From a virus, in IMG/VR virus record IMGVR_UViG_3300028597_000028, positions 1 to 43,863 of that record: DNA of 43,863 nucleotides. One strand, written 5' to 3'. Position numbers and translations under genes: made by a program. This document shows positions 25,611 to 43,863 of this stretch, piece by piece. The notes beneath the pieces are model-generated. The model did not search any database and was not told where the DNA came from. It worked only from the letters and a program-made list of their open reading frames with translations. The stretch's first letter is position 1. Each line of letters opens with the position of its first letter.

Positions 25611-28600
25611 ATGAGACTCGTCGAGTCGTATGCGTCCGACCAGACCACCGTCGTGGTCAACGGGCGCACCCTTCCCGTTCCGTCTCTCGTCGAGGACGAC
25701 GAGGACGGCATCCGGTGGCTGCTGCATGCGCAGTCCAGCACCATCCACGCCCCGCTGTGGGCCCGCGCCAGTGCCGCCGGTGCCGCCGGAATCATCCAGG
25801 CGGGTCCCTCGGGTTTCTCCGCCATCATCGCGGAGCACTTCGCCGAGGTCCGCACCGAGCAGGCCCCGAACTACATCGTCCAGGCCTGCGACTGGGAGGT
25901 CTTCGACGGGCCCCCGTCGTACTCCGAGGTGTTCTCGAAGCGCGAGGCCAGCAAGACCGGCCAGCTCTGGACCCCGCCGACCGGAGGCCTGACCGGCTTC
26001 GTGCACGGCCACACGCACGCCGAGTACTCCTCGCTGGACGGCCTCTCCACGGTCACCGAGATCGTGGACGAGGTGGTCCGGTACGGACAGCCCGGCGTGG
26101 CCCTGACCGACCACGGCCGGGTCTCCGGCCACCCGGAACTCCAGATCGCCTGCGACAAGGCGGGCATCAAGCCGATCTTCGGTCTGGAGGCGTACTTCCA
26201 GGACGACCGGTTCGCCCGGTCCAACCCGGAGTTCGACAAGGAGGTCAACCACGCGATCCGGTACGGGTACTGGCACCTGATCCTGTGGGCCATGAACGAC
26301 GAGGGGCTCCACAACCTCTGGGCCATGTCCACGGAGTCGTTCCGGGACGGCATGTACGACAAGAAGCCCCGGCTGGACTGGGACACCCTCCAGCGCCACT
26401 CCGGGGGCATCATGGCGGCCTCCGGGTGCCTCCGGGGCCCGCTGTCCGTTCCGGTCCTGAACGACGACGAGGAGACCGCCAAGGCCCGCCTGGGCAGGCT
26501 CCTGAACATCTTCGGCGACCGGTTCTACATGGAGATCCAGCCGAACGCTCTCGCGGAGCAGGAGAAGGTGAACCGGGCCCTGGTCGGCCTGGCGAAGGAC
26601 TTCAGCGTGCCGCTGATGGCCACGACCGACTCCCACTACCCCAAGAAGAGCCACTATGCCGCTCATCAGGCCTGGATCGCAGTTCAGACGAACTCGGACG
26701 TCAACGACGAGGGGGACCTCTTCTCGGTCAATCTCGATCTGTACCTCCAGAGCGAGGAGGACGTCCGACGCGGGCTGGCCTACCTCGGTTCTGAGGTGGT
26801 CGACGAGGCGGTCCGGAATTCTCTTGATCTGGTCTCCCGCACCTCGGCCCGCATTGGCGGCAAGCCCACTCCTCCCGTCTTTTCGAAGAAAGGCGGGCAC
26901 GAGCGGGATGCGGAACGCCTCCTGGATCTTTGCCTGGAGAACTGGAAGAAGGTAACTGATAAGGCGCAGCCGCAGTCGGTCTACATCGAGCGGTTCGAGC
27001 GGGAATTTAAATTGCTCCAGCAGAAGGACTTCTGCGGGTACTTCCTGATGGTCAGCGACTACTGCCTGGACCCCTCCACGCCCGTCCTGACCGAGGACAT
27101 GCGATGGGTGGAGGTCGGCAAGCTGGAGGTAGGTGACAGGCTGGCCGGGTTCGATGAGCACAAGGTGGTCAAGCAGCAGAAGGGCCACCGGTACTGGCAT
27201 TCCGCCGAGGTCGTGAACACGCGACGGATCGTCCTGCCCACCTACAAGATCACCCTGGCGGACGGGACCGAGACCATTACCTCTGAGGACCATCAGTGGC
27301 TGGTGACCTCCCCGAGTGGATGCGCCGCCCGATGGATCCGCACCAAGGACCTGAGGGTCGGACAGCGGGCCCAGCGCCTCGTGTCCGAGTGGGACGAGCC
27401 GAACACCTGGGAGGCCGGATACCTTGCCGGGATCCTGGACGGCGAGGGGTCCCTCAGCACGTCCAAGATGAACAACGGCGGCCGGACTCTGACCCTGAGC
27501 TTCGCCCAGAAGGAGGGAGTGGTCCTGGACACCTCCCTCAAGATCCTGGACTCCTGGGGCTTCGACTACTCAGTCAAGGACCACGGGGCGAAGAGAAACG
27601 GGCTCCGGAGCGTGTCTCTCCGAGGCGGCCGGGCGGAGATCATGCGCCTGCTGGGCATGGTCCGTCCGCAGCGCCTGCTGGCCAAGCTGGACGTGGAGAT
27701 GCTGGGCCGTGTCGTCTCGATTGATACCCCCGCCATCGTCAGCATCGAGCCGCTGGGCATGGGTGAGGTCGTCGCCCTGGAGACGACCACTGGGACCCTG
27801 GTGGCCCAGGGCTTCGCACACCACAACTGCCGCTGGGCCAAGAAGAACGGCATTCTGGTGGGCCCCGGCCGGGGATCCGGGGGCGGCTCCCTGGTGGCCT
27901 ACCTCTGCGACATCACCGAGATCGACCCGGTGGAGGGCGACCTCCCCTTCGAGCGGTTCATGACCGAGGGCCGGACGTCCCTGCCGGACTTCGACTGCGA
28001 CTTCCCGGCCTCCATGAAGGAGCGGATGCTCGGATACGTCCGGGACACCTGGGGCAAGGACCAGGTGGTCCAGATCGGCACCCACCTGCGACTGAAGTCC
28101 AAGGGCATCGTCAAGGACCTGAAGCGGGCCATGATGTCCACCCTCCTGGCCGACGAGCAGCGAGTTCTGGACCACGCCGTGGCGAACAACAACGACTACG
28201 CGGACGCCATGGCCGTACAGGTCGCCCGGGAGGCTCTGACGGCCAAGCGGGCCGAGATCGAGACCGACATGGCCAAGGTCTCGAAGATCGTGACGGAGGC
28301 CGAACGGGGCACGGCCGGTCTGGGTATGGCCTGGGACGACCTGTGGATCCAGTTCGGGGACCAGCTCCAGCCGTACCGCGACAAGTACCCCGAGCTGTTC
28401 TCCATGGCCGACGTGCTCCAGGGCCGCCTGAAGTCGTACGGTAAGCACGCGGCGGGCGTGGTGATCTCCACCGGCCGACCGCTGACCGACTGGCTCCCGA
28501 TGGCCCAGGGCGAGGACGAGGGCAACATGGTCACCCAGTTCGACATGGGGACCGTGGAGGCCATCGGCCTGGTCAAGTTCGACATTCTGACCATCCGGAC

Positions 28601-30269
28601 CCTGGACACGGTCCAGATGGCAGTCGACCTGATCAAGGACCTCCGTGGGGTCGATGTGGAGATCTACTCCTGGAAGGAGGAGTACTCCGACCCGCAGGTC
28701 TGGGGGGAGGTCGCAGCGGCCAAGACGCTCGGCATCTTCCAGATCGAGACGAGCGCAGGAACCCGGCTGTGTCAGCAGATGGGGCCGCGCTCCCTCCAGG
28801 AGCTGTGCGACATGATCACCCTCGTCCGGCCGGGACCGATGAACTCCGGCCTGACGGAGGCCTACCTGAAGCGCCGGGCCGGTCTGGAGCCGGTGAGCTA
28901 CCCGGACCCGCGCATGGAGCAGGTCCTCGGCTCCACCTGGGGGTGCATGATCTACCAGGAGCAGATCATGCAGGCCTGCATCCTGCTGGGCGGCTACAGC
29001 TCCGACGAGGCCGACGAGGTCCGCAAGATCCTCGGCAAGAAGAAGGTCGAGAAGATAGGACCGGCCGGTCAGGAGTTCGTCTCCCGGGCCGTCCAGAACG
29101 GTATGGAGCGCGAGGCCGCGTCCCGGCTGTGGGACCAGATGGCCGAGTTCGCGAAGTACTCCTTCGGCAAGGCCCACGCGTACGCGTACGCGGTCCTCGC
29201 GTACTGGACGGCGTGGCTGAAGTTCCACTACCCGATCGAGTTCTTCACGGCGGCCCTGAGCACCATCGACAAGGAGCGGATCCCGGAGTTCATCAAGGAG
29301 CTGCGGCGGGCCGGGTACACGGTCCTCCCGCCGGACATCAACGCCTCCGGCAAGGGCTTCAAGGCCGAGCCGCTGGCCGTCCGGTACGGGCTGGACTCGA
29401 TCAACGGCATCGGCGAGGCCGCCGTGGACTACCTGGTGGCCGGGCAGTACTACCCGGATTTCAAGTCCTACGACGAGTACGTGACCCAGAAGGGCACCGG
29501 GGCCAATGCGGCGGTCCAGATGACCCTGGCCCGGATCGGGGCGCTGGACTCCCTGGAGCCCCGCCGGGCCGCCGTGGTGCGGATGCTGGAAGCCCGCAAG
29601 ACCGGCGAGGACAAGCGGTGCGTTTTTAAAAACGACGAGGTGATCTTCTCGACTCGGGAGATCCTGACTCATCGGCTGGAGGGTCAGACCGAGGAAGAGT
29701 TCGAGGAGTGGCGGCGGATGAACGTCCCGCCGGACACCTGCACCTTCGACTGGTCCACAGAAGAGGCTCCGGTCAACAAGCGCACCGGCAAGAAGCTCAA
29801 GAAGAAGCCGCTGCCGAAGAAGTGCACCAAGGCCTGCCGCCAGTACAAGGCCCCGGAGCCGGTCTCTCTGTCCGAGGGGGAGGACTTCACGGACGAGGAG
29901 ATCCGGGCCATCGAGCACGAGCTGCTCGGGGTGTTTCTCTCGTCCTCGCCCTTCGACCGGCTGGACCCGGAGGACCGCCAGCGGCTCTACGCCGACGCGG
30001 AGGCCATGGCCGACGGCGAGGCCGGGAGGCTCTACACGGTGGCCGCGATCCTCATGGGGATCCGGCTGACCAAGACCCGTGCGAACGGGGACGAGATGGC
30101 CTTCCTGAAGCTCGACACCGAGACGTCGACCGTGGAGGCCGTCTGCTTCCCCCGCAAGTGGGCGGAGATCAAGACCGGCATGTACGAAGGTCAGCTCTGC
30201 CTGGTCGTCCTGGAGAAGCAGGACGACGACAAGGGCTTCATCGCCCAGGAATACCTGCCAGTTCACTGA
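25611..30269 (+). CDS. dnaE: DNA polymerase III alpha (DnaE-type) interrupted by an intein
   Basis: The ATG at 25611 follows CAGGAGG. The 1552-residue precursor contains an intein (485-739) and splices to 1297 residues, a usual DnaE size. Its first ~130 residues are unusual and precede a PHP domain (HGHTHAEYSSLDG, ~131-143; LTDHGRVSG). Polymerase motifs are YFLMVSDY/CRWAKKNG, VGPGRGSGGGSLVAY and PDFDCDF (catalytic Asps, near 790). VTQFDMG (third Asp region, near 980) follows. The C-terminus has an OB-like part (LYTVAAILMGIRLTKTRANGDEMAFLKLD). It is the replicative polymerase. The PHP domain keeps several His/Asp residues and may give proofreading, since no separate exonuclease gene is obvious here. 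Confidence 0.88.
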   Translation: MRLVESYASDQTTVVVNGRTLPVPSLVEDDEDGIRWLLHAQSSTIHAPLWARASAAGAAGIIQAGPSGFSAIIAEHFAEVRTEQAPNYIVQACDWEVFDGPPSYSEVFSKREASKTGQLWTPPTGGLTGFVHGHTHAEYSSLDGLSTVTEIVDEVVRYGQPGVALTDHGRVSGHPELQIACDKAGIKPIFGLEAYFQDDRFARSNPEFDKEVNHAIRYGYWHLILWAMNDEGLHNLWAMSTESFRDGMYDKKPRLDWDTLQRHSGGIMAASGCLRGPLSVPVLNDDEETAKARLGRLLNIFGDRFYMEIQPNALAEQEKVNRALVGLAKDFSVPLMATTDSHYPKKSHYAAHQAWIAVQTNSDVNDEGDLFSVNLDLYLQSEEDVRRGLAYLGSEVVDEAVRNSLDLVSRTSARIGGKPTPPVFSKKGGHERDAERLLDLCLENWKKVTDKAQPQSVYIERFEREFKLLQQKDFCGYFLMVSDYCLDPSTPVLTEDMRWVEVGKLEVGDRLAGFDEHKVVKQQKGHRYWHSAEVVNTRRIVLPTYKITLADGTETITSEDHQWLVTSPSGCAARWIRTKDLRVGQRAQRLVSEWDEPNTWEAGYLAGILDGEGSLSTSKMNNGGRTLTLSFAQKEGVVLDTSLKILDSWGFDYSVKDHGAKRNGLRSVSLRGGRAEIMRLLGMVRPQRLLAKLDVEMLGRVVSIDTPAIVSIEPLGMGEVVALETTTGTLVAQGFAHHNCRWAKKNGILVGPGRGSGGGSLVAYLCDITEIDPVEGDLPFERFMTEGRTSLPDFDCDFPASMKERMLGYVRDTWGKDQVVQIGTHLRLKSKGIVKDLKRAMMSTLLADEQRVLDHAVANNNDYADAMAVQVAREALTAKRAEIETDMAKVSKIVTEAERGTAGLGMAWDDLWIQFGDQLQPYRDKYPELFSMADVLQGRLKSYGKHAAGVVISTGRPLTDWLPMAQGEDEGNMVTQFDMGTVEAIGLVKFDILTIRTLDTVQMAVDLIKDLRGVDVEIYSWKEEYSDPQVWGEVAAAKTLGIFQIETSAGTRLCQQMGPRSLQELCDMITLVRPGPMNSGLTEAYLKRRAGLEPVSYPDPRMEQVLGSTWGCMIYQEQIMQACILLGGYSSDEADEVRKILGKKKVEKIGPAGQEFVSRAVQNGMEREAASRLWDQMAEFAKYSFGKAHAYAYAVLAYWTAWLKFHYPIEFFTAALSTIDKERIPEFIKELRRAGYTVLPPDINASGKGFKAEPLAVRYGLDSINGIGEAAVDYLVAGQYYPDFKSYDEYVTQKGTGANAAVQMTLARIGALDSLEPRRAAVVRMLEARKTGEDKRCVFKNDEVIFSTREILTHRLEGQTEEEFEEWRRMNVPPDTCTFDWSTEEAPVNKRTGKKLKKKPLPKKCTKACRQYKAPEPVSLSEGEDFTDEEIRAIEHELLGVFLSSSPFDRLDPEDRQRLYADAEAMADGEAGRLYTVAAILMGIRLTKTRANGDEMAFLKLDTETSTVEAVCFPRKWAEIKTGMYEGQLCLVVLEKQDDDKGFIAQEYLPVH
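27004..27013. repeat. AATTTAAATT palindrome just upstream of intein
   Basis: A 10-bp all-A/T perfect palindrome in the polymerase gene, 50 bp before the intein insertion. It is the only one of this sequence noticed in the window. Confidence 0.35.
27063..27827 (+). other. Intein in the DnaE polymerase core (255 residues)
   Basis: It begins CLDPSTPVLTEDMRWVEVG (Cys1 at 27063). Block B is ITSEDHQWL, and it ends VVALETTTGTLVAQGFAHHN before the extein Cys at 27828, with the usual His-Asn end. GYLAGILDGEGSLS is one LAGLIDADG-like motif; a second is not clear, so the endonuclease may be single-motif or reduced. The insertion splits YFLMVSDY from CRWAKKNG, immediately before the VGPGRGS motif. The frame is intact, so splicing should be functional. 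Confidence 0.85.
29623..29632. repeat. TTTTTAAAAA palindrome within polymerase gene
   Basis: A fourth copy of the palindrome. As at 8192, it is read V-F-K-N in the coding frame (GTTTTTAAAAAC). Confidence 0.5.
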
Positions 30270-38108: not shown

Positions 38109-40178
38109 ATGCCGACCCCCACCGTCGTCCGGGGCAAGCCCCGCTCCTCGGGGCTGCCCGCCGCGTTCGGGCCGGACAAACTGTTCCAGCTCTTCACCGG
38201 TCTGCCGATCCCGGACCCGATCACCTTCGTGATCCATCCGGAGTACCTGGACCGGCCGAACATGTACCCGCGCCAGGCCACCCTGCTGAAGGTCATCTTT
38301 CTGCGGGACGACCTGTTCACGGAGTACGACCACGCGGTGATCGACGAGTGGGAGTCGAGCTTCCGGGAGACCGGGAACAACGGCATCGTGCCGAACGTCC
38401 GCCAGCGGATCCGGTGGCTGAAGGGCAAGGGGCACAACTGGTTCCGGGAGACCCTGCTTGTCATGGGCCGCCGTGCGGGCAAGGGGCACATCTCCGGCCT
38501 GTCCATGGCCTACGTGCTGTGGAACTACATGGCCAAGGGCGACCCGCAGCGTTACTACGGCGTGGACCGGGACAAGAAGCTCGTGGCGATGGTCTTCGCC
38601 GGTAAGCGGGACCAGGCGAAGGCCACGGTGTGGCAGGACGCGGTGAACTACATCACCGGCTCGAACTGCTTCGCGCCGTACATCCGAGCACCCCTCCAGG
38701 CCGAGAAGCTGTCGATCTTCGCCCCGAACGACTTCCTGCGCATGAAGAAGCGCGCGGAGCAGGGCATGAACCCCGACGACATCAACATGGCCACCTTCGA
38801 GCTGGTGCCGAAGGAGTCCACGCTGATGGCCGGTCGTGGTCCCACGTCGTTCTGCCAGGCCTGGGACGAGATGGCCCACGTGGTGGCCTCTGGGGCCAAC
38901 CGGTCTGCCGAGGAGGTCTACGCGGCGGCCAAGCCGTCCCTGGACCAGTTCGGCAAGGACGCCTTCATCATCGAGCCGTCCAGCCCCTGGCAGATGCTCG
39001 GGCAGTTCTACATCAACTACTGCAACTCGATCTTGCTGGACGAGGAGACCGGGGACCCGGTCTATCCCGAGATGCTCATGATCCAGCTCGCCTCCTGGGA
39101 CATCTACAAGGACTGGGAGACCGCGCACGAGCTGGAGATCTTCCCTCCGGACTTCATGGGTGACCTGGGGGAGTACGAGGGGCTGCCCCGGCCGAAGTTC
39201 GAGCCGCTGCGGGGAGCCATTCAGGCGTACGACGACCAGATGGCCCGCGAGGAGCAGGCGAACCCGGACACCTTCAAGGTGGAGCGCCGCAGCCACTTTG
39301 CGGTGGCCCTGGACGCCTACCTGAACGAGGCCAAGGTCAAGCAGATCTTCGCCCCCTGGGACGGCCGGAACCCGCACTTCGGCCAGCCGCTGCTGGGCAT
39401 GCAGGAGAAGGGCCGCCTGGACATCGAGTACACCGCCCACGGCGACCCATCGAAGTCGAACGCGAACTTCGGCCTGGCGCTGGCCCACGCCGAGATGGGC
39501 CCGGACGACCGGCTCCACGTGGTCTTCGACAAGATCCACCACTTCGAGCCGCAGAACTTCCAGGACCACATCGTCGACTACGACCTGGTGGAGGAGTGGA
39601 TCTGGGACAACTTCATGAAGCCCTTCATGCCGGGCGTCATGAGCTTCGACCAGTTCAACTCGGCTCAGGTCATCCAGCGGCTGGGGAAGCGGTCCCGGCA
39701 CTCGACCCTGCCGAAGGTCACCCAGGTCTTCGAGAAGACTGCGACCCGCCAGCGGAACTGGCAGCGGGCCGAGATCTTCAAGACCGCCGTGAACATGGGC
39801 TGGGTGCACGCGCCGTTCTACGAGCAGGCCGAGCTGGAGCTGAGGTTCCTCCAGGAGAAGAACGGTGTCGTGGATCACCCGGATTCCGGCCCCGTCCAGA
39901 CAAAGGACGTCGCGGACGCCATGATGGAGTGCGTGATGGCACTCATCGGCGACCAGATCGTCTCCATGCGGGCGGAGCTGGGGGCCATGCGGCCCCAGGG
40001 GGCCATGCAGGGCGGCGCAGAGCCGTTCCCGGGCATGAGCCGGAACGACGACTTCTCCACGGGCCCCCGGACGAGCCAGCAGATCTTCCAGCAGCTCGGA
40101 GGGTTCGGGAAGTCCCGGGGCATGCGGCCGGACTCGATACGGGGCGGCAGCCGGAGCCGTGGGCGACGCGGATTCTGA
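38109..40178 (+). CDS. terL: Terminase large subunit
   Basis: The ATG at 38109 has only a weak GGGG-type ribosome-binding site. The 689-residue protein starts with a Pro-rich segment and NMYPRQATLLKVIFLRDD. It has a Walker A-like LLVMGRRAGKG (~116-126) and Walker B-like AWDEMAHV (~250-257). The C-terminal nuclease half includes HGDPSKSNANFGLALAHAE and MSFDQFNS, with acidic residues expected for an RNase H-like nuclease. The end is Gly/Ser/Arg-rich (SIRGGSRSRGRRGF). It packages DNA into the prohead by ATP hydrolysis and cuts concatemers. It is followed by a terminator and the giant polyvalent gene rather than directly by a portal gene. Confidence 0.85.
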   Translation: MPTPTVVRGKPRSSGLPAAFGPDKLFQLFTGLPIPDPITFVIHPEYLDRPNMYPRQATLLKVIFLRDDLFTEYDHAVIDEWESSFRETGNNGIVPNVRQRIRWLKGKGHNWFRETLLVMGRRAGKGHISGLSMAYVLWNYMAKGDPQRYYGVDRDKKLVAMVFAGKRDQAKATVWQDAVNYITGSNCFAPYIRAPLQAEKLSIFAPNDFLRMKKRAEQGMNPDDINMATFELVPKESTLMAGRGPTSFCQAWDEMAHVVASGANRSAEEVYAAAKPSLDQFGKDAFIIEPSSPWQMLGQFYINYCNSILLDEETGDPVYPEMLMIQLASWDIYKDWETAHELEIFPPDFMGDLGEYEGLPRPKFEPLRGAIQAYDDQMAREEQANPDTFKVERRSHFAVALDAYLNEAKVKQIFAPWDGRNPHFGQPLLGMQEKGRLDIEYTAHGDPSKSNANFGLALAHAEMGPDDRLHVVFDKIHHFEPQNFQDHIVDYDLVEEWIWDNFMKPFMPGVMSFDQFNSAQVIQRLGKRSRHSTLPKVTQVFEKTATRQRNWQRAEIFKTAVNMGWVHAPFYEQAELELRFLQEKNGVVDHPDSGPVQTKDVADAMMECVMALIGDQIVSMRAELGAMRPQGAMQGGAEPFPGMSRNDDFSTGPRTSQQIFQQLGGFGKSRGMRPDSIRGGSRSRGRRGF

Positions 40179-40343: not shown

Positions 40344-43300
40344 GTGAATCTGAGTGAGCTGTTCGGCAAGGTGGCGTCCGAGACGGACGGCGGCACGGTG
40401 CGCATGGTCACGCCGGAGGAGTACCGCAAGTTCCACTATCCGGACTACCCCAACGCCAAGACGCTGCCAGCTCTGGTGAGGCACTTCAAGAAGACCGATC
40501 CGGAGTACTTCGCCAAGGTCCGGGACGACGTCCAGAAGAACGGCTTCTCCACCCCGATCCTGGTCCAGTACAAGGATCAGCGGGGCAACGACCTGAAGAA
40601 ACCGTACGTGCGCGAGGGGCACCACCGTGCAGCCGTAGCGCATGATCTCGGGATCCATCTGCCGGTCGGCGACTACGACAACGAAGCCGACTTCCAGCGG
40701 TCCCGGGCAGGCAACGCGGAGTGGTTCAAGAACAACGAGCGCGGTCCGCAGGGCGTCTCCTGGGAGGCTTCTCTCCGACCGCGCAAGGCGGCCGGGGATC
40801 CCGGGGTGTACCGGGGTCTGAGCCTCGTGCTGCCTCCGGACATCCACAAGATGGTCCACGACCCCGCACAGCCCGCCGCCGCGCGGGCCCACATGCTCCT
40901 CTCGGAGATCCGGAAGCAGAAGGAGGGCCACCAGGGCGAGGAGGCCACGGGGGAGACCGGAGGCATCGGGAGCTTCTGGACCCCGCACCGGCGCAAGGCC
41001 GAGGAGTACGCCACCCAGTCCGGCTTCGGCGCGTACAAGGAGCACGAGCTGGAGCACAACTGCGGCGACGAGTTCTACGGCCATGGCGGATGCCCCACGA
41101 CCCGCGTGGTGGTGCACGCCCAGACCCCGCCGGTGGAGCACCACTGGACGGAGATCTTCCGGCCGGGTGAGAGGTACGACCCGGAGATCTCCTGGCGGCT
41201 CCCGGTCCGGCCCGGTACCCCGATGAGCGTGAAGGCGATCTCCTGGCGCGAGGGCAACGACCACCACTCCTCCGAGGAGAAGTACTCCGCCGAGGGTATG
41301 GCGGCCGAGAGGGCCCCGTACGAGGGCTACGACTTCTCCGCCGGGGTCAGCAAGCGGGCCTCCGCAGATCTGCCGCCGGAGCACGACGGCGGGGAGATCC
41401 CCAGCGACTGGCTCAAGCTGCACGGCCACCAGGTCCGGGTGCACACCGACGGGCACTCCAACGTGGAACTGGTTCCCACCTACGACCTGACGCGGTACGC
41501 CACCCAGGAGACGGACCCGGCGCACGCCAAGAAGGTCGCCGAGCACGTCCTGACGGTCGGCCACATGAAGCCGCTGATCCTCCAGTACCACCCGAAGACC
41601 TCGGAGGCCTACCTCGGGGAGGGCAATCACCGGCTGTACGTGGCCCGGAAGCTGGGCATGTCGCACGTTCCGGTCCGGGTGACCCGGGCGGCCTACGGGC
41701 TCGCCGGAGAGGGCTCCAGGACGCCTCAGGAGCACCCGGCGGTGACTGCCGGTGCCCACGTGCCCTCGGACATCCGGCCGAGCGAGATTGGGCTGAACGT
41801 GATGCCCCCGAGACCCCGCACGGCCAAGGTCACCTCCGGCCCCGGGGAGGCACCCCCGATGGGCGAGGACCACTACGACGAGGACGACGGGGAGTACCGG
41901 CAGCTCTGGGACGAGTGGCACCCCAAGCTCCAGCCGACGATCCACCGGCACCTCGCGATGGACCTCTCCAAGGGTCACCCGGCCCACGACGAGAAGCTCC
42001 CGATGGCCGCCAGGGCGCACGCGCTGCTGGAGGATGCCGGGCAGTACCACCCCTCCGGCCGTCTGGGCTGGCACTGGACCGACGACGCCTCGTACAAGCA
42101 CCTGACCGGTCCCCGGATCTCTGCGGGCCAGACGCCGGTGACCATTCACGCCCAGACGCCCCCGCGCAGCCACATCGAGGACAACGAGTGGACCTTGCGA
42201 GAGGACCGCGCGGTGCGGGATTGGGACACCGACCCCGAGCGGGAGGTGCCGCTGAAGCGGAATGCTCCGGTGAACGTCACCGGCATCTCGTGGAACTCCG
42301 GCGGCAAGATGGTCCACCACCAGTTCGGGGGACCGATCCAGAAGCGGGCCGGGGCCAACGGAAACCTGCCTGAGGGGCTGACGTTCCACCACGAGCAGGT
42401 GATGGACGGCAAGCTCCACCACATGATCGCGCGGCACCCCGACGCCCCACACCAGGAGATGTGGGGCAATCACGTCGGCCGGATCACCTGGTGGAGCAGC
42501 GACGGCGAGGTGTCCAACCTCCATGTGGAGCCGCAGTACCAGCGTCGTGGCGTGGCGACCGAACTGTGGAACCGAGCGAAGGCCGTCCAGCCCGATTTGA
42601 AGCACTCAGAGGAGCAGACCGAGGAGGGTGCCGCCTGGGCCCGTACGACGGCCGCGTATGCCCCTCCTGGGACCATGGGGACCGATAACGAGGGCCACCG
42701 GGTCCAGATGACCACCATGGACGGCTGGGCCCACGACGACGGCTCCCACGGCCACGAGGACAACACGACGATCGGCGATCACCCGGTCTACACCCAGACC
42801 CACACCTGGCTGCCCGAGGGCCGCTACTGGGGTCCCAACAGCGCCCAGAACGACCAGCGGCTGTTCGAGGGGGATCACCTGCGGCCGGAGGTCCGCCAGG
42901 ACATCCTGAGCCGCATCAACAGCTTTATGCGGCCCCGGTACAAGAACTGGCCCAAGTGGACCCGGGTGTACTTCGCGGGATCCGAGGCGGCCCGCTGGGC
43001 TCCCTTCAACGGTGATTTCGACTGCCTCCTGGGGGCCGACTTCGAGACCTTCCGCAAGGAGAACCCGGAGTACGCGGCCCAGCCGGACGACGCCATCGCC
43101 AAGATGATCACCGACGGCATGTGGCACACCATCAACGTGGACGGCTACTGGTTCACGTTGGCCGACGGCCGGAAGGTGGGCCCCTTCGACCGGACGTTCT
43201 TCATGAACCCCAACGCGTGGGACATCCGGAACCTGAAGCCGTACGCCGCCTACAACGTGAGCGACGACACCTGGGCGGTTCACCCCCTGGAGGTCCCGAA

Positions 43301-43863
43301 GGACTGGGACGCCACCCACCTCCCGGAGTCCTACTGGACGTATGCTGAGTCGGTCTTGAACGAGATCAAGGCCATAGGACAGCTTCCGCCGGAGGAGCGC
43401 CACCGGATGGCGGCCAACCTCTGGGAGGAGCTGCACACCCACCGGTCCGACGCCTTCAACGGCGACGGCAAGGGGTTGTACGACCTCTCCAACGTCATAG
43501 AGAAGTACTTGGACCAGCACCCGGACAAGCCCTGGGATCAGCTCGTGCAGTGGAAGAACGAGGCACCGAGCGGGCCGAGCCCCTGGGTGCCGACCACCGC
43601 CAGGAGGACGATCTTGAGCATGCTGTTCGACGCGAAGGCCAAGGAGCCCGAGGGGGCCGACTCCAGCGGCCTCATGGTGGCCATCGTTCCGCCGAAGTCC
43701 CTGGGCAAGAAGCTCCTGGTGGAGGGCGGAGAGCCTCTGGAGTCCCTCCATGTGACCCTGTGCTACCTCGGGAGTGTCTCGGAGTACTCCGCGAAGCAGG
43801 TGGACGAGCTGGAGACGCTCGTGCACGCCTGGGCCGGTACGCAGAAGCCGCTGACCGCGAGGG
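40344..43863 (+). CDS. Giant polyvalent protein, ParB/ADP-ribosyltransferase-like repeats, 3' end outside window
   Basis: A GTG at 40344 follows GGAGG (five-base spacing). The frame is open for 1173 codons to the window end. Order: ParB-like 1 with REGHHR (~90-95); ART-like 1 with VYRGL (155), SFWTPHRRKAEEYA (210) and VVVHAQTPP; ParB-like 2 with GEGNHR (425-430). ART-like 2 follows: GWHWTDDASY (~575), VTIHAQTPP and DPEREVPL, an E-x-E. Then a GNAT-like piece (VEPQYQRRGVATELW, 728) and a nucleotidyltransferase-like GSEAARWAPFNGDFD (879-893, GS-x10-DxD). Last is HVTLCYLG of a 2H phosphoesterase (1136). The two ParB-ART pairs look like an internal duplication. All domains are read from motifs. 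It is likely virion-associated or co-injected, by analogy with polyvalent proteins. Confidence 0.75.
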   Translation, partial: MNLSELFGKVASETDGGTVRMVTPEEYRKFHYPDYPNAKTLPALVRHFKKTDPEYFAKVRDDVQKNGFSTPILVQYKDQRGNDLKKPYVREGHHRAAVAHDLGIHLPVGDYDNEADFQRSRAGNAEWFKNNERGPQGVSWEASLRPRKAAGDPGVYRGLSLVLPPDIHKMVHDPAQPAAARAHMLLSEIRKQKEGHQGEEATGETGGIGSFWTPHRRKAEEYATQSGFGAYKEHELEHNCGDEFYGHGGCPTTRVVVHAQTPPVEHHWTEIFRPGERYDPEISWRLPVRPGTPMSVKAISWREGNDHHSSEEKYSAEGMAAERAPYEGYDFSAGVSKRASADLPPEHDGGEIPSDWLKLHGHQVRVHTDGHSNVELVPTYDLTRYATQETDPAHAKKVAEHVLTVGHMKPLILQYHPKTSEAYLGEGNHRLYVARKLGMSHVPVRVTRAAYGLAGEGSRTPQEHPAVTAGAHVPSDIRPSEIGLNVMPPRPRTAKVTSGPGEAPPMGEDHYDEDDGEYRQLWDEWHPKLQPTIHRHLAMDLSKGHPAHDEKLPMAARAHALLEDAGQYHPSGRLGWHWTDDASYKHLTGPRISAGQTPVTIHAQTPPRSHIEDNEWTLREDRAVRDWDTDPEREVPLKRNAPVNVTGISWNSGGKMVHHQFGGPIQKRAGANGNLPEGLTFHHEQVMDGKLHHMIARHPDAPHQEMWGNHVGRITWWSSDGEVSNLHVEPQYQRRGVATELWNRAKAVQPDLKHSEEQTEEGAAWARTTAAYAPPGTMGTDNEGHRVQMTTMDGWAHDDGSHGHEDNTTIGDHPVYTQTHTWLPEGRYWGPNSAQNDQRLFEGDHLRPEVRQDILSRINSFMRPRYKNWPKWTRVYFAGSEAARWAPFNGDFDCLLGADFETFRKENPEYAAQPDDAIAKMITDGMWHTINVDGYWFTLADGRKVGPFDRTFFMNPNAWDIRNLKPYAAYNVSDDTWAVHPLEVPKDWDATHLPESYWTYAESVLNEIKAIGQLPPEERHRMAANLWEELHTHRSDAFNGDGKGLYDLSNVIEKYLDQHPDKPWDQLVQWKNEAPSGPSPWVPTTARRTILSMLFDAKAKEPEGADSSGLMVAIVPPKSLGKKLLVEGGEPLESLHVTLCYLGSVSEYSAKQVDELETLVHAWAGTQKPLTAR

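Follow-up and report, generated by a model that had tools for sequence, protein, structure and literature searches.

The stretch analyzed here, referred to as the window, is the 43,863-base virus record IMGVR_UViG_3300028597_000028, which ends within the gene of a giant polyvalent protein lying directly behind the gene of the large terminase subunit (terL). This one protein comprises at least seven separate modules, mostly enzyme-like, beside a DNA-packaging gene. In agreement with an earlier sequence-only reading, the frame starts with GTG at position 40344 of the plus strand, directly after terL (38109-40178), and runs through 1173 codons without a stop to the last base of the record, leaving it incomplete at its 3' end. 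A GGAGG-like site precedes this GTG, and the mechanical open reading frame (ORF) starts at ATG 40212. According to profiles made in this study the module order is ParB1, ADP-ribosyltransferase (ART)-like 1, ParB2, ART-like 2, GNAT, a pol-beta-type nucleotidyltransferase (NTase) and the start of a 2H domain. The features are as follows (aa, amino acids).

38109-40178, + strand: terL, 689 aa, immediate upstream neighbour, matching annotated terminases of Gordonia, Mycobacterium and Rhodococcus phages
40344-43863, + strand: polyvalent protein ORF, 1173 aa, GTG start, running past the window end
40344-40379, + strand: N-terminal leader MNLSELFGKVAS, pattern hydrophobic-x-x-[LFH]F-x(1-4)-A
40461-40700, + strand: ParB/sulfiredoxin-like domain 1, aa 40-119, REGHHR (phrog_498, phrog_21912; profile of this study E 2.6e-23)
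40782-40793, + strand: junction motif RKAA between ParB1 and ART-like 1
40797-41294, + strand: ART-like domain 1, aa 152-317, which retains R and W-T but reads S-W-R in place of E-x-E (alignments A2, A5)
41352-41363, + strand: junction motif KRAS between ART-like 1 and ParB2
41466-41741, + strand: ParB/sulfiredoxin-like domain 2, aa 375-466, GEGNHR (phrog_8071, phrog_723, phrog_3147)
41817-41828, + strand: junction motif RTAK between ParB2 and ART-like 2 (RTAG at the corresponding place in L004)
41925-42323, + strand: ART-like domain 2, aa 528-660, R535, W578-T579, E632-x-E634 (AlphaFold pLDDT 86.9)
42342-42353, + strand: junction motif KRAG between ART-like 2 and GNAT (KRAGANG also precedes GNAT in L006)
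42390-42638, + strand: GNAT acetyltransferase, aa 683-765 (PF13673 23.8 bits; profile of this study E 2.6e-26)
42645-42656, + strand: junction motif TTAA between GNAT and NTase
42801-43547, + strand: pol-beta-type NTase, aa 820-1068, G879-S880 ... D891-F-D893, E/D at 949 (56-row alignment A3)
43593-43622, + strand: NTase-2H linker TTARRTILSM, within which a second leader-like LxxLF stretch begins
43665-43862, + strand: 2H phosphoesterase start, aa 1108-1173+, HVTL as first HxT (phrog_2659 E 5.5e-6; profile of this study E 3.7e-28)

The assignment of terL is supported by phrog_2 (terminase large subunit, E 1.2e-4) and by 32% identity to the terminase of mycobacteriophage I3. A second contig, L003, matches aa 1-1148 of the polyvalent protein, its best segment being 100% identical, and ends within the same gene; since both records stop inside the gene, the C-terminus is known from relatives only. 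Full-length orthologs lie behind terL in L004 and L005 (1494 aa each), L006 (1625 aa) and L007 (836 aa), a more distant ortholog was found in L009, and L008 has an ORF in the same place which gave no BLAST match. Besides the closest relatives (L004, L006, L007 and L009), at least 16 more phage contigs have the polyvalent ORF directly next to terL. No full relative was found among 50,697 phage records, searched at the DNA and the protein level.

Profile searches of the individual segments matched the ParB and GNAT modules and gave no meaningful match for the ART-like ones. Both ParB/sulfiredoxin-like domains, recognized before by REGHHR and GEGNHR, were confirmed by PHROG and by our own profiles: the ParB-like PHROG matches of the window protein have E values of 1e-5 to 1e-6 and the GEGxHR-type motif is present, while the scores of Pfam ParB_N in the relatives stay under its cut-off. 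The region of ParB2 (aa 325-467) is 36% identical to I3 gp88. Likewise, the GNAT suspected from its motif is real, barely exceeding the curated Pfam cut-off of 23.6 bits in the window and being firm in relatives (81 bits in L006). The proposed 2H domain was substantiated in part, as the window holds the first HxT only and the second one lies beyond its end, where it is present in orthologs; the 2H-type match in the window is to the PHROG named 'RNA ligase', and a complete 2H domain (PF13563) was found in L004, L006 and L007, in L004 with E 5e-12 and both HxT motifs (HVTL, HITL). A suggested relation to the anti-CBASS enzyme Acb1 is unsupported: the Acb1 profile is absent from the close orthologs and from the window, where the 2H domain is incomplete, and L047 scores 16.9 against a cut-off of 27 bits. 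Additional modules in the relatives are a NUDIX domain in L004 and three GNAT stretches in L006.

The constant unit of the terL-adjacent polyvalent ORFs, which range from 508 to 2011 aa, is the NTase. At least 19 other such ORFs of this length range, from phages of about 155 kb, reshuffle the modules around it. The GS-x10-DFD motif noted earlier is indeed part of a pol-beta signature, hG[GS]x9-13[DE]h[DE]h, which is completed by a third acidic residue; in the 56-row alignment the G, the S/G and the two D are each present in 56/56 rows and E/D at 949 in 48/56, PYAAY and H/R being further invariants. The predicted model of the domain (pLDDT 92.6) retrieved only members of the pol-beta superfamily among all 50 listed PDB matches, including CD-NTases, terminal uridylyltransferases, CCA-adding enzymes, AadA and MNT, with a best E value of only 0.03. 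For this domain neither Pfam nor PHROG nor the PDB sequences gave a convincing match, and on the basis of its sequence it is a family without a name in the libraries searched. As solo ORFs of about 300 aa the family occurs in dozens of other viral contigs. Approximately 40 such members lie among L060-L109, and the few that were scanned have no convincing PHROG name. Among the 50,697 phage records the NTase was found in six, all of them Streptomyces phages; BRock gp39 and its homologs belong to the same family (28% identity over 89% of the domain) but differ in being solo ORFs of about 330 aa without the other modules.

Each of the two ART-like units contains one of the V-HAQTPP blocks that had been described as occurring in two copies. 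In the alignment the R, the W and the T/S following the W are conserved in 16/16 rows each, and the final E of E-x-E in 13/13 rows other than ART-like 1. ART-like 2 has R, [ST] and E-x-E in the order of R-S-E-type ADP-ribosyltransferase motifs, and in its AlphaFold model strand 1 carries the R and W-T is located at strand 2, a later strand beginning with E-x-E. In ART-like 1 the catalytic E-x-E is lacking and replaced by S-W-R in all three carriers (window, L004, L006), which also have in common an insertion H-x-C ... GGC. Since nothing of R, W-T and E-x-E is missing from ART-like 2, it is the complete copy and ART-like 1 the one without the E; they are not complementary halves with R/S features in one and E-x-E in the other, as the sequence-only reading had assumed. 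Searches of Pfam, NCBIfam and PDB sequences yielded nothing useful for the ART-like domain, and a profile comparison with T4 ModA/ModB (hhalign) gave no match (0.2%). The PDB fold search with ART-like 2 returned no significant match, the sole ART, the toxin TreTu, appearing at rank 4 with E 0.27, and its BFVD fold matches are unnamed or ParB-named phage proteins only. The ART identity is unconfirmed, resting on motifs and modelled topology, and the domains are consequently called ART-like. As a separate observation, the unassigned stretches of L006 (aa ~1000-1100) and several relatives contain a GDWVSTS domain whose motif looks ART-like; in L006 it adjoins a match to PHROG 2579 'ParB C-terminal domain'.

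The two halves of the N-terminal region evidently constitute a repeat. Alignment of segments 20-330 and 370-670 gave a score of 154 compared to a shuffle mean of 39.9 (z=18, 0/1000 shuffles as high), with z=13.6 for ParB1/ParB2, z=12.2 for ART1/ART2 and about 0 for the cross pairs. That one ParB-ART unit was recently duplicated in tandem and subsequently subfunctionalized, as had been proposed, is nevertheless highly improbable, since both halves have orthologs of their own in other phages and group with these. ART1 of the window is 57-61% identical to ART1 of L004 and L006, with which it groups at 100/100, and ART2 is 60-68% identical to ART2 of L004 and L007 (99/98); similarly, ParB1 has a ParB of L042 as its partner (88/98), and ParB2 clusters with those of L004 and others (80/88). 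A tree with ART1 and ART2 of the window forced as sisters was rejected (p-AU 1e-74), whereas forcing all six ART1 and ART2 together was not rejected (p-AU 0.16), leaving room for one old origin of all of them. Furthermore, the relatives hold single units in other orders, and among the proteins compared by module profiles the order ParB-ART-ParB-ART occurs in the window only. Thus the internal repeat is, by its sequences, an old one, either put together from separate lineages or maintained as such; an ancient repeat stands, a recent duplication with functional split does not.

The modules are separated by linkers in which a short motif, [KR]TA[AGS], recurs. It was first noticed in six proteins and mycobacteriophage I3 and was tested on 22 proteins outside that set, some of which are close relatives of one another: the 15,073 residues not assigned to a module contained 24 sites and the 10,812 residues within modules none, compared to a mean of 2.1 and a maximum of 8 in 1000 shuffles of the linkers. 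In an unbiased count of over-represented linker tripeptides in 19 representative proteins, which include the six motif-defining ones, TAA ranked first and KTA second. As codons vary at the motif sites, it is the peptide that is conserved and not the DNA, which rules out a repeated DNA cassette. The window protein itself carries variants, namely KVAS at the N-terminus and RKAA, KRAS, RTAK, KRAG, TTAA and TTAR at all six module junctions, the variant pattern having been loosened after the sequence was seen and having one match inside ParB2.

Outside the polyvalent genes the motif is found among the head genes. In I3, one of the genomes where it was first seen, 11 of 12 sites from 189 annotated proteins fall into the head block at 30-51 kb, genes 88-105 (p 2e-8), where gp88, gp94, gp95, gp102 and gp103 are the carriers. 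In the L004 and L007 phages, too, the sites are concentrated in the block from portal to capsid (P 0.001 and 1e-4, respectively), with gene calls that are approximate and a block drawn after the sites were seen. I3 gp103 and its homologs in both phages carry sites; of these proteins, gp103 and the homolog of the L007 phage match a head-maturation-protease family. The linker motif being common to head genes and the protease gene, processing during head maturation is suggested. Between the portal and protease genes the L004 and L007 phages also encode a second multi-domain protein (L012:6342-10127, - strand, and L024:1723-5709), a homolog of I3 gp102, whose L004-phage copy has an ART-like segment.

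Alternatively, the protein could be a cytoplasmic multi-enzyme that is made in infection and never packaged, the motif representing flexible linkers only. Packaging is indeed only a prediction, and NTase homologs exist as solo genes, in BRock adjoining the endolysin gene. We nonetheless regard this as distinctly improbable in view of the terL adjacency, the motif being common to portal-region, protease and polyvalent head genes and nearly absent from the rest of I3, and the failure of shuffled linkers of equal composition to yield it.

Besides the motif, most complete relatives start with a short, hydrophobic leader ending in [LFH]F-x(1-4)-A, as in (I)SATSFFRQAA, AAEFFRHAA, DILEHFAAA, LTELFTTAA and LSELFGKVAS, and I3 gp94 carries the pattern too (FGLFEAAADA). 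It also occurs internally, for example as three LLQHF-type stretches in L009; the statistics on the leader cover the linker counts. CPCCGG/CSCC zinc-ribbon-like stretches recur near the N-terminus as well (linkers of L006, L058 and L067). The occurrence of leader-like LxxLF/HF stretches at both N-terminal and internal positions would fit motif and leader being docking or packaging signals that bind scaffold or inner capsid, with the protein packaged and injected whole like N4 vRNAP, which is reported to be packaged unprocessed (PMC5512222). This explanation appears unlikely to us, less so than a cytoplasmic enzyme, because strict sites were never found in modules, several are no more than about 30 aa away from the edge of a module, where cleavage sites would be expected, and the protease gene itself carries sites.

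We consider it reasonably probable that the gene encodes a head-packaged polyvalent effector polyprotein, possibly cut at the linker tetrapeptides, of a tailed phage of about 155 kb. Such a protein would be expressed late with the packaging and head genes, be loaded into the head and enter the host with the DNA. The tetrapeptides and the N-terminal leader would most likely be signals read in head assembly, the tetrapeptides probably being cleavage sites of the phage's own head maturation protease, which would release the modules. These could then work separately, the ParB-like domains acting on DNA, the ART-like and GNAT domains modifying proteins, next to the NTase and the 2H enzyme, which may destroy 2',3'-cyclic RNA ends or nucleotide alarm signals.

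Several points weigh against this reading. Packaging and cleavage are predictions from sequence, and a literature search found no published proteomics of cluster C virions. The strict [KR]TA[AGS] is absent from the window protein, which has variants only, and even the relaxed motif occurs in about half of the inter-module gaps (28/60). 'Linker' denotes residues outside assigned modules and may hide undetected domains. One site in the protease ORF of the L004 phage, at residue 193, falls within the part that aligns with the protease region of gp103, the major capsid protein of I3 yielded no site, and K/R-T-A differs from the site reported for the prohead protease of SPN3US (PMC10052503). Finally, the ART fold was recognized by neither profile nor fold search.

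Polyvalent proteins of phages and conjugative elements are a known class (Iyer et al. 2017, PMC5512222), and ARTs, 2H and NUDIX domains near head genes have been described already (PMC9503650). The window protein, with ParB, ART-like, GNAT, NTase and 2H in one chain beside a packaging gene, rightly had been called one of them: as in that class, disparate modules (ParB-like, ART-like, GNAT, pol-beta NTase, 2H) are phage-encoded, lie beside packaging genes and are duplicated and rearranged. It differs in that the polyvalent ARTs described there are of the H-Y-D type, whereas the ART-like domains here have R / W-[ST] / E-x-E; that the NTase is a separate family of about 250 aa, constant at the locus, and not the minimal four-strand version; and that no zincin was found in the window protein, which has the K/R-T-A linker motif shared with head genes instead. 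I3 gp88 and its homologs in cluster C mycobacteriophages ('ParB-like nuclease domain protein') resemble it in having an ART-like domain followed by ParB, an RTAG site and a position near head genes, with homologous domains (aa 244-467 at 27% identity), but gp88 has 575 aa, lacks NTase and 2H and does not adjoin terL. With regard to the proposed mode of action, both T4 Alt and P1 DarA are packaged proteins that are injected, the latter once the prohead protease has trimmed it (PMC5512222; PMC12810830), and head proteins of SPN3US are processed by a prohead protease as well (PMC10052503). The likeness to P1 DarA/DdrB and T4 Alt would accordingly extend to packaging, prohead-protease trimming in some cases, injection, and anti-defence or host modification; the homology comparison, however, covered T4 ModA/ModB only and gave no match.

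Judged from the sequences, two things are new here: a locus beside terL that reshuffles modules around one unchanging NTase without a family name, and a linker motif that recurs in head genes and the protease gene. A more specific version, which we put forward tentatively, as it may well be wrong, is that of a plug-in effector polyprotein in which exchangeable modules, each bordered by a K/R-T-A-[AGS] site for the phage's own head maturation protease, would surround the constant NTase, the same code being used in other head proteins of large Streptomyces and Mycobacterium phages. If so, a single gene would supply the host, along with the DNA, with a mixture of separate enzymes in stoichiometric amounts. 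Should the motif be a protease site, the head effectors of a large phage group would become predictable from sequence, and for polyvalent proteins a concrete mode of processing would be at hand besides that by zincin domains. This fast-shuffling effector locus is tied to a short motif that is testable in cultured cluster C mycobacteriophages such as I3.

The nearest NTase matches in genome collections are located on contigs of 152 and 157 kb in assemblies of Streptomyces sp. A0642 and MH60, in which terL again adjoins the polyvalent ORF; for this reason Streptomyces, a genus of soil bacteria, is most likely the host. These two contigs (L110, 152.5 kb, coverage 196, in isolate A0642, and L111, 156.9 kb, in MH60) look like complete phages, either carried or contaminants.

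In addition, the DNA polymerase ORF of the window (25611-30269, 1552 aa) contains an insertion of 255 aa (27063-27827), absent from the L004 and L007 phages, which starts with C, ends with HHN before C, includes the LAGLIDADG-like stretch AGYLAGILDGEG and is probably an intein.

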